From: Polynucleobacter meluiroseus
Lineage (GTDB): Bacteria > Pseudomonadota > Gammaproteobacteria > Burkholderiales > Burkholderiaceae
Length of the DNA: 40,037 nt
NCBI GenBank assembly: GCA_945901245.1
Contig: CAMDKY010000014.1
Location: 1 to 40,037, forward strand
Direction of reading: 5' to 3'
Numbering within the stretch: position 1 is the first letter of the stretch; every line of letters begins with the position of its first letter. Positions 14,037-16,419 of this stretch are shown here, piece after piece. Position numbers and translations under genes: made by a program. The notes under the pieces are model-generated. The model did not search any database, was not told the DNA's origin, and saw only the letters and a list, made by a program, of their open reading frames with translations.

Positions 14037-14915
14037 TCAATCTGAAGATATCAAATTGTAAGCGGGATTTTTATTTATCCCTCGAACAATCCGGCCCGTC
14101 CACTCCCGAGGTAGATTTTGCAGTAGGGAATCGAGATTTACAGTGTCAGCCTGCCACGGAATGGCGGCAAAGACGCTGCTACCAGAACCGGACATTTGGG
14201 GCTTTGCGCCAGGCAAAGCTTCTGTAATCCAATCTATTGCATGTTTCACTTCGGGGCAAATCTGCGCCGCCACTGCCTGACAGTCATTGATAAAGGCCGG
14301 ATCAGGTAGTGGTGACGCTAAAAAGCCGTTTATTGTAATCGGGGCATGATCGCGGGTCAATTCGGGGTGTGCAAAAAGGGCCTTTGTGGCAATGCTGCGA
14401 TTCGGATAGAGGACGATAAAAAGGCGTTCTGGCAAAGCAACTTCCTGAATGACTTCGCCGATTCCCTCAACAAAAGCGTTGCTTCCATGGATAAAAAAAG
14501 GTACGTCGGCCCCCAATTCCAGACCCAGCTCCATGAGTTGCGCGCGTGAAAGTTGAAGATCCCAAAGGGCATTGAGGCCAATTAATGTGCTTGCTGCATC
14601 GGATGAGCCTCCGCCAAGGCCGGCTCCAACAGGTAATTCCTTTTGGAGCTTGATTTCTGCGCCGATTGGTACCTGGCATTTACGTTGCAGCAGGGTTGCG
14701 GCGCGAACCACGAGATCCTCTTCTTCGGCAATTCCCGCTACTGGATTGGTGCGGCTGATGCGATTGTTCGTGGTACTGGTAAGTGTGACGGTATCGCACC
14801 AATCAATCAGTTGAAAAACCGACTGCAAGAGGTGGTAACCATCGCTTCTTCGGCCAATGATATGCAGAAATAAATTCAGTTTGGCGGGCGCAAATAGCGT
14901 CAGCGTATTAGTCAT
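14037..14915 (-). CDS. ispE: 4-diphosphocytidyl-2-C-methyl-D-erythritol kinase
   Basis: IspE phosphorylates CDP-methylerythritol in the non-mevalonate isoprenoid pathway. The protein opens TLFAPAKLNLFLHIIGRRSD and carries the GHMP-kinase ATP loop PVGAGLGGGSSDAA near residue 92 and a C-terminal KPQMSGSGSSVFA. I start it at the ATG at 14915, which overlaps the stop of the upstream gene as ATGACTAA and gives 292 residues. An upstream start at 14945 would add ten residues with no family support. Confidence 0.95.
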   Translation of the reverse strand: MTNTLTLFAPAKLNLFLHIIGRRSDGYHLLQSVFQLIDWCDTVTLTSTTNNRISRTNPVAGIAEEEDLVVRAATLLQRKCQVPIGAEIKLQKELPVGAGLGGGSSDAASTLIGLNALWDLQLSRAQLMELGLELGADVPFFIHGSNAFVEGIGEVIQEVALPERLFIVLYPNRSIATKALFAHPELTRDHAPITINGFLASPLPDPAFINDCQAVAAQICPEVKHAIDWITEALPGAKPQMSGSGSSVFAAIPWQADTVNLDSLLQNLPREWTGRIVRGINKNPAYNLISSD

Positions 14916-16419
14916 CAATTTGATCAAAAACGAGGCGGATATCAATTGGCCCCGTTTTGGTATTGCGGGTCAGATTAAGCTTTTCTAGCTTACGCGCACC
15001 GTCAGTCCAGACATAAGATAGATTCCATCCATCTTGACTGATTTTCGAGACAATGCCATTCGCACTGCGCTCTAGGCTGGCAGGACTGCCTGGCCTGACT
15101 TGACCGCGTAGCCAGTCAGAGAGGCCGCGCGCCGGGAGGGGAAGTCCAAGGGCTGACTGAACTAAGGAATCAGCATCGATGGCTTTGCTGATCTTGCCAC
15201 CTTGTTCCAGTACTGCTTCGCCCGGCGTTATGGTGATTTTTGCAATCGAGCCACCTACTGGATTTCGAATCTCCAGCGTATCGTTGAGAGCATCTTGGCT
15301 CAAGGTGAAGCCACCAGAACCACCCTCTGCTGGCCTATCTGCTCCGGCATTCATACGAATCGAGAAACGACCATCCCACACAATCTTAGTTGATTGGTTT
15401 GGCATAACCCAATTGGGTTTAAAGCGTTTTAAGGTCTCTCGTAAGGTCGTATTGTTGGCGTCCATCTTTTCAGCATCCCGCCAGGCGCTTTCGGCATCAT
15501 TGAGATTGCCCATTGCCCAATACACCTCACCCAAGTGAGCTGATATTTCTGCTTCCGGTTTCATCTTGGCAGCCTGACTCAGCTGGTCGCGTGCTAATGC
15601 CAGTTTGCCCATGCGAAAGTTGACCCAACCCAAGCTATCCAAAATAAACGCATCTTGTGGCGCTAGATTGTGTGCTTTTGTAATGAGTGCAAAAGCTTCG
15701 GGTAGGTTTTGTTTGCGGTCGGCGAGTGAGTACCCTAAGGCATTGAGGGCGTTCGCATCATTGGGTGTTTTTTTCAGAATCTGCCGTAAGGTATCTTCCA
15801 TGACCTCATAGCGCCCCACTTTTTCTGCCGCCATGGCGTAGGTGTACATGATTCCTGGGTCGCTGGGCAGGGGTTTGAGCGCTGAAATAATCTCAAAATA
15901 CGCACGCATCGCTGCAGCCTCATCCACCGCGCGACCTAATATGGGCTGCAGCTGCTTCAGGGTTCGCTCTTGAGTCGCAGCATTTTGTCTCAGCAATAAA
16001 GAGACCGCTGGCTTTACAGCATCAGACCAACGCTGATTCAACATTAATAAGGTGACTAATACTTCCTTGGGTTTTGTATCACCAGCTGGAGATAGGCTAT
16101 CCCATGCACTTGCCGCATCGAGGGCAAGCTCGGGAGCATTGGCTGCAATGGCAATTTCCATCGCGCGCTGCGCAAGTTGAGGATCGCCGGTTTGCCGAGC
16201 AAGACTCAGGTAGGTTTGGTAGGCTAATGCTGGCTCGCCCCGCTGGAGGGCAATTTCAGAGGCCAGGATCTCAAAAACCTGTTCGCCAGTAGCGCCTTGG
16301 TTACTCTGAGCCAATGAAGCCCAGCTGAGGCAGGTGCTTGCTAGCAAGAGAGCAATAATCTTGCGAACAGGCAACAGGGCCTTGGTGAGGTGCAAATGGA
16401 TTAAACGGAACATAAGCAC
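14908..16419 (-). CDS. TPR protein fused to an outer-membrane lipoprotein receptor LolB domain
   Basis: This 503-residue protein joins two genes that are separate neighbours in related bacteria. Residues 18-38 form a signal peptide. About 188-322 hold at least four TPR units (for example ANALNALGYSLADRKQNLPE and DSLGWVNFRMGKLALARDQL). Residues 346-503 match LolB: WDGRFSIRM, LEIRNPVGGSIAKITITPG, the LGLPLPARGLSDWLRGQ region and GWNLSYVWTDGARKLEKLNL. LolB accepts lipoproteins from LolA and inserts them in the outer membrane. The usual lipid-attachment cysteine is missing: the only nearby cysteine, at residue 30, follows AST. GGAG lies 8 bases before the GTG start. The ispE gene follows with an 8-base overlap. 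Confidence 0.88.
   Translation of the reverse strand: MLMFRLIHLHLTKALLPVRKIIALLLASTCLSWASLAQSNQGATGEQVFEILASEIALQRGEPALAYQTYLSLARQTGDPQLAQRAMEIAIAANAPELALDAASAWDSLSPAGDTKPKEVLVTLLMLNQRWSDAVKPAVSLLLRQNAATQERTLKQLQPILGRAVDEAAAMRAYFEIISALKPLPSDPGIMYTYAMAAEKVGRYEVMEDTLRQILKKTPNDANALNALGYSLADRKQNLPEAFALITKAHNLAPQDAFILDSLGWVNFRMGKLALARDQLSQAAKMKPEAEISAHLGEVYWAMGNLNDAESAWRDAEKMDANNTTLRETLKRFKPNWVMPNQSTKIVWDGRFSIRMNAGADRPAEGGSGGFTLSQDALNDTLEIRNPVGGSIAKITITPGEAVLEQGGKISKAIDADSLVQSALGLPLPARGLSDWLRGQVRPGSPASLERSANGIVSKISQDGWNLSYVWTDGARKLEKLNLTRNTKTGPIDIRLVFDQIDD

Follow-up and report, generated by a model that had tools for sequence, protein, structure and literature searches.

A genus-wide fusion of LolB to an LbcA-like TPR protein, without a strict lipobox, in Polynucleobacter

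The described systems closest to the locus analysed here are the outer membrane lipoprotein LolB and the LbcA-CtpA system of Pseudomonas aeruginosa. LbcA of P. aeruginosa is reported to be lipidated at Cys-17 and to contain 11 TPRs (PMC11021448, PMC8764530, PMC6050968), and its N-terminal helix (H1) is described as required for the binding and activation of CtpA (PMC11021448, PMC8764530). In the same organism lbcA, lolB and ipk are reported to form an operon, and three CtpA substrates are given as predicted outer membrane lipoproteins (PMC6050968). For LolB of E. coli, the exchange W52P is reported to be harmful and Trp52 to be tied to lipoprotein binding (PMC10368991), and polar residues at Leu68 are reported to damage the protein (PMC11885536, PMC10368991). 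Published accounts of lipid-free LolB are not in full agreement. According to a review, the outer membrane anchor of LolB guarantees delivery to the correct membrane (PMC11784454), and soluble E. coli LolB (mLolB) was described to accept cargo and to misplace lipoproteins into the inner membrane (PMC10368991); on the other hand, the soluble LolB1 C17G of F. johnsoniae was reported to complement fully, and E. coli LolB is cited in the same paper as not needing its anchor (PMC11885536). Moreover, a bifunctional LolA of Caulobacter is described as able to finish delivery itself (PMC11784454). In the available parts of the literature on LolB, LbcA-CtpA and Polynucleobacter, no description of a TPR-LolB fusion was found.

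In the window, by which the whole analysed stretch of 40,037 nucleotides from Polynucleobacter meluiroseus is meant, an earlier note made from the sequence alone had pointed to a LolB domain joined to a TPR protein. This fusion is real, genus-wide and unusual.

The fusion gene and its occurrence in Polynucleobacter

In a single open frame at 14908-16419 of the minus strand (503 aa), a signal peptide is followed by a TPR array and then by a LolB domain. Six TPR models exceeded their Pfam cut-offs ahead of LolB (PF03550), which scored 82.7 bits at residues 351-500 against a gathering cut-off of 23.7, so that the one continuous frame described in the earlier note is borne out. Residues are numbered throughout by the 503-aa form, i.e. 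from GTG 16419 (Table 1).

To analyse its occurrence, 101 genomes of the genus were taken from a larger group; those with a completeness of 90% or more and a contamination of no more than 5% were regarded as good. The LolB profile matched in 97 of the 101 genomes, one match per genome, and once each in 79/79 good ones; the four genomes without a match are only 78-85% complete. At 97/97 loci the LolB match and TPR sequence lie in one frame. Contig ends cut two of these frames at the 5′ side and one at the 3′ side, so that the 5′ end is intact in 95 and both ends are intact in 94, and the fused proteins measure 484-543 aa from the conserved Met (median 495, n = 94). The fusion is genus-wide in Polynucleobacter and no local accident.

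Translation probably starts at the ATG at 16413, which would give a protein of 501 aa, since each of the 95 homologues whose 5′ end is intact has Met at this position, and the residue on the GTG side, two codons before, is variable (Val in 84, another residue in 11). The downstream neighbour, which we take to be ispE, has its ATG within the end of the fusion gene, the stop of the one and the start of the other sharing 8 bases (14908-14915), and this overlap suggests translational coupling. The divergent neighbour, presumably mutM, lies 35 bases from the fusion gene start.

Table 1. Features of the fusion locus, with positions in the window and residues of the 503-aa form
Feature	Position	Strand	Remarks
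Fusion gene TPR-LolB	14908..16413	-	501 aa from conserved ATG; 503 aa from GTG 16419
Signal peptide	16309..16413	-	SLA|Q between residues 37 and 38 as probable signal peptidase I site, by eye
Cys30	16330..16332	-	preceded by A-S-T; fails both lipobox patterns
N-terminal LbcA-like helices	16081..16287	-	residues 45-113, near LbcA chain start; weak match, 19.7 bits, i-E 0.0038
C-terminal TPR block	15421..15897	-	residues 175-333, aligned to last LbcA TPRs, 132.3 bits; helices in the model
TPR/LolB linker	15385..15420	-	residues 334-345; in the place of lolB signal peptide and lipid tether
LolB domain	14911..15384	-	residues 346-503, by Pfam, model and fold match
Leu373	15301..15303	-	at the E. 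coli LolB Trp52 place; Leu in 94/94 fused, Trp in 58/59 separate
Val388	15256..15258	-	at the E. coli LolB Leu68 place, the tip of the protruding, membrane-inserting loop; V/M/I/L/F in 94/94
Trp436	15112..15114	-	at the E. coli LolB Trp117 place; Trp in 94/94
Trp471	15007..15009	-	Trp in 94/94 fused, 0/59 separate; specific to the fused form within this comparison
ispE (name presumed)	14037..14915	-	ATG overlaps the fusion gene end by 8 bases

A second lolB, for which the earlier note had left room, was not found: at E <= 10, Pfam LolB gave one match in the P. meluiroseus genome, the fusion itself. This genome is a draft in 79 contigs, 93.75% complete, of which about 6% may be missing. A very divergent second LolB could have escaped Pfam there, because Pfam puts 0/11 of the frames in the lolB place of family f17 described below over its cut-off. 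The genome additionally holds one LolA match and one match to the LolC/E family above cut-off, with two weaker ones below it, and cargo should therefore reach the periplasm as usual.

The two halves of the protein

Two lipobox patterns were used, L[ASTVIG][GAS]C as the strict one and the core of the PROSITE motif as the lax one. The strict pattern occurs in 0/95 complete fused N-termini and the lax one in 7/95. Cys30 is the sole Cys of the N-terminus in P. meluiroseus, and any Cys within the first 50 frame residues is found in 28/95 homologues, none in 67/95. Many homologue signal peptides end in AHAQ or the like, and AxA occurs within frame residues 19-50 in 63/95; BamD of the same genome, used as positive control, has the lipobox LLISGC. 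The earlier statement that signal peptide and lipobox of lolB are gone agrees with these counts. By its motifs the fusion protein would carry no lipid, which is inferred, and export probably proceeds via the ordinary signal peptide of the TPR gene.

Among PDB sequences the TPR half matches LbcA of P. aeruginosa (PA4667) best, with E 1.3e-42, and the first chain other than LbcA has 2.3e-8. By this similarity the TPR half is related to LbcA, a kinship newly recognised here. The identification rests on sequence and not on fold, because many unrelated TPR chains score alike (Z 15-17). Fold alone was rejected as identifier of LbcA: LbcA is the first Foldseek match (E 3.2e-12), but at an rmsd of 10. 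Residues 45-113 map, in a weak match of 19.7 bits, to the LbcA region whose N-terminal helix activates CtpA. In the structural model TPR helices extend only from 45 to 319, compared with 11 TPRs in LbcA, and the N- and C-terminal blocks are 178-259 residues further apart in 16/19 relatives than in the fusion (e.g. at 108-234 and 479-636 in L119). By these alignments, the array of the fusion is shortened relative to most relatives, with most of its middle absent. In three unfused TPR genes from genera g21 and g22 (L109, L110, L111) the blocks are merely 29-67 residues further apart than in the fusion, and because of these short unfused arrays shortening may have happened more than once in the family.

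As regards CtpA, the P. meluiroseus genome contains one S41 protease match, which gives E 6.5e-111 against the CtpA hexamer of P. aeruginosa (7rqh), and the CtpA family is present in 98/101 genus genomes, among them 79/79 good ones. The CtpA-family gene lies 24.4-24.9 kb from the fusion in the 32 single-contig genomes compared, a distance from which nothing is drawn, as gene order may be conserved generally.

On the LolB side, the NCBIfam equivalog TIGR00548 stays below its cut-off (36.8 vs 59.6 bits). The predicted barrel begins at residue 346 and matches solved LolB structures with Z 17.5-19.6 and rmsd 2.1-2.4 over 149-154 residues (8cm1, Z 19.6; 8orn_B, Z 19.4; 1iwm_A, Z 18.3; best rmsd 2.1 over 151 residues). 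The place of Trp52 was equated through Xcc Trp61. The changes at Leu373 and Trp471 may, as a guess, compensate each other in the lipid cavity.

The structural model, predicted from 8 sequences, has a mean pLDDT of 79.4 and a pTM of 0.57, with pLDDT under 50 at 323-326 and 332-343. A fixed interface between TPR and LolB is not apparent in it, although such a model, which comes with no pairwise error values, could hardly reveal one. Mean majority identity is 0.559 in the linker (334-347), 0.541 in the signal and 0.74-0.80 in the other parts, and the N-terminal TPR block, at 0.804, does not fall below the remainder (0.787-0.794).

Selection was estimated by Nei-Gojobori counts with our own script. 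Against the near relatives L150, L169 and L181, dN/dS amounts to 0.030, 0.036 and 0.050 for LolB and to 0.028, 0.039 and 0.029 for the TPR part, at dS values of 1.4-1.9 that are near saturation; the TPR value against L031 is saturated. Six other pairs within the genus gave 0.016-0.071 for LolB and 0.012-0.063 for TPR, the pair L036/L068 being left out because of its absence from the alignment. These ratios indicate that both halves are under purifying selection and that neither is decaying.

Gene structure in relatives and origin of the fusion

For gene structure, 20 stretches were compared, which come from 16 further genera within the same family. A TPR gene with its own stop is followed by a separate lolB with a lax lipobox in 19/20, a few of the 19 lolB genes being part of a more extended open frame. 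The profiles detected neither a TPR gene nor lolB in the remaining stretch (L108). A lax lipobox is absent from the TPR frame of 17/19 relatives, and in L103 and L112 it stands, by eye, ahead of the hydrophobic core or of the likely start. Separate lolB was further examined at 60 loci, of which the 30 best-scoring came mostly from two large genera and the other 30 from hand-picked genomes; the gene was found by profile at 59, with a lax lipobox shortly before the domain in 58/59; the one exception, L052, reads PQAC. In the family as a whole, LolB matched in 241/249 genomes. Several family genomes show long open frames around lolB. The eight genomes without a LolB match (G107 and G162 of genus g8, G128 of g9, G103, G105, G113, G126 and G133) are 93-99% complete, three of them having 1.1-1.7 Mb and five at most 0.5 Mb.

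In a second family, f17 (L196-L206), a short unfused TPR gene, a separate lipobox-bearing frame and ispE follow each other in 11/11 genomes, the middle frame being named lolB by place and lipobox only and ispE assigned by eye. Pfam LolB exceeded its cut-off in 0/11 of these genomes, and LolB may for this reason be more widespread than the profile shows. The adjacency of the TPR gene, lolB and ispE in relatives, which the earlier note had mentioned, thus holds for TPR gene and lolB in 19/20 family relatives and for all three genes in f17.

An HMM built from 8 fusions matched 391 of 399 genomes in the order and, at 1e-30, 261 of 370 in the class. Among the matches listed for the order, position 503 is reached only in the 9 genomes of the genus, and the others end by 366; among those listed for the class, only the P. 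meluiroseus genome reaches 503 and the others end by 354. The fusion was found in no genus besides Polynucleobacter among the matches listed from these 399 and 370 genomes; weaker matches beyond those listed could include a further one.

In a tree of the TPR parts the Polynucleobacter rows (19/49) form one clade with support 99/98 and the f17 rows a separate one with 100/100, the deep forks being open and subject to a long-branch warning. The tree fits a single fusion event before the genus radiated. A shared ancestry of the short TPR genes of Polynucleobacter and f17 was considered as well; with separate clades and open deep forks, no sisterhood is claimed.

The earlier note had explained the gene by a deletion joining neighbours and had proposed a comparison across Polynucleobacter and its relatives. 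That comparison sets the fusion in 97/101 genus genomes beside separate genes in 19/20 relatives. The joining of neighbours is in keeping with the adjacent genes of the relatives, but the join is genus-wide and not local, and stop loss cannot be the whole story, because the LbcA-like TPR partner is itself shortened relative to most relatives.

Function of the fusion and comparison with known systems

The fusion is, with a probability of about 0.6, a working lipid-free end point of the Lol pathway that is positioned by its TPR half. In a Polynucleobacter ancestor, a shortened TPR gene of the LbcA type and the lolB behind it would have become one frame, the product of which would be exported by the ordinary signal peptide of the TPR gene and carry no lipid. 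As the sole LolB of the genome it would take lipoproteins from LolA, and its hydrophobic loop would release them into the outer membrane. The TPR half, as a putative remnant of a CtpA adaptor, would position the insertase via partners in the periplasm or on the outer membrane side, with CtpA as first candidate. Insertase activity, location and CtpA binding of the fusion are what we infer in this proposal. It is favoured by the presence of the fusion in 97/101 genomes with one LolB each, by the fold, by the loop residue and Trp436, by the low dN/dS, by the strict lipobox count of 0/95 beside a BamD with lipobox, and by the presence of LolA and the LolC/E family. For the TPR half, the kinship to LbcA and the CtpA family in 79/79 good genomes speak in its favour, as do the reported function of engineered lipid-free LolB (PMC11885536) and the P. 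aeruginosa operon (PMC6050968). Counting against it are Leu at the Trp52 place in 94/94, the missed TIGR00548 cut-off, the 7/95 N-termini that pass the lax lipobox, and the reported misplacing of lipoproteins by lipid-free E. coli LolB (PMC10368991).

CtpA binding may itself have been lost, as the middle of the array is mostly absent and the N-terminal LbcA match is weak (19.7 bits). A dual role, in which one molecule puts lipoproteins into the outer membrane and also hands part of them, or other cell-wall hydrolases, over to CtpA for degradation, is rather doubtful; it would couple the delivery of lipoproteins to their turnover, and the insertase would recognise the membrane before it by the protease complex instead of by a lipid.

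Another, though unlikely, explanation is a plain fusion of two periplasmic neighbours in which the TPR half has lost its CtpA function and LolB is a freely diffusing soluble protein with no new coupling. The low-confidence linker of the model, the array shortened relative to most relatives and the full complementation by soluble LolB1 C17G in F. johnsoniae (PMC11885536) would suit it, but the TPR half is constrained about as strongly as LolB, conservation in its N-terminal block is no lower than elsewhere (0.804 vs 0.787-0.794), and CtpA accompanies the fusion in 79/79 good genomes.

We regard it as quite unlikely that the LolB domain is no longer an insertase, with LolA or another factor finishing delivery and the barrel holding acylated substrates for the CtpA adaptor. 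The strong constraint on the LolB domain and the kept loop residue and Trp117 position argue against such a role, despite the loss of the Trp52 position together with a fixed Trp471 in 94/94, the existence of a bifunctional LolA (PMC11784454) and the reported prediction of three CtpA substrates as outer membrane lipoproteins (PMC6050968).

That the protein is a lipoprotein through Cys30 is highly improbable: L150, L169 and L181 read LLASAC and pass the lax pattern, but the sequence of P. meluiroseus itself is AST-C, the strict pattern stands at 0/95 and the lax one at 7/95, and 67/95 N-termini are free of Cys in the first 50 residues. An artefact of sequencing or assembly, conceivable for a draft in 79 contigs, is refuted by the homologues: 94 with both ends intact have the same frame, and many of these come from genomes assembled into a single contig (e.g. 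G026).

Polynucleobacter are free-living, culturable bacteria. A putative lipid-free end point of natural origin makes it testable whether LolB needs its lipid and what takes the place of the lipid. A genus whose only recognisable LolB is without a strict lipobox would be a natural counter-example to the anchor requirement put forward in a review (PMC11784454). The fusion further suggests that lipoprotein delivery and the LbcA-CtpA system are physically connected, because lbcA and lolB are reported to share an operon in P. aeruginosa (PMC6050968).

With the LolB proteins of E. coli, V. cholerae and X. campestris the fusion shares the fold, the Pfam profile, the hydrophobic loop residue, the Trp117 position and the place between a TPR gene and ispE; it differs in having neither a strict lipobox nor a signal peptide of its own for LolB, in its C-terminal position on a TPR protein, in Leu at the Trp52 position and in the gain of Trp471. 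With LbcA it shares sequence kinship, both aligned terminal blocks, the gene order lbcA-lolB-ipk and the presence of CtpA in the genome, whereas it has no strict lipobox, a shorter TPR array and a joined LolB. It is accordingly treated as a protein whose LolB domain has no lipobox and sits on an LbcA-like scaffold, and as a plain member of neither family, since the lipoprotein feature of LolB and the lipid and 11-TPR features of LbcA are not found by motif. The bifunctional Caulobacter LolA and an engineered LolA-LolB chimera likewise represent an insertion step without acylated LolB (PMC11784454), but in Caulobacter LolA is the insertase, whereas in the present case LolA is a protein distinct from LolB, and LolB sits on a TPR scaffold. 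Finally, mLolB and F. johnsoniae LolB1 C17G resemble the fusion as LolB exported without lipid; those are laboratory constructs, whereas the fusion is the only form of LolB in the genus sample.
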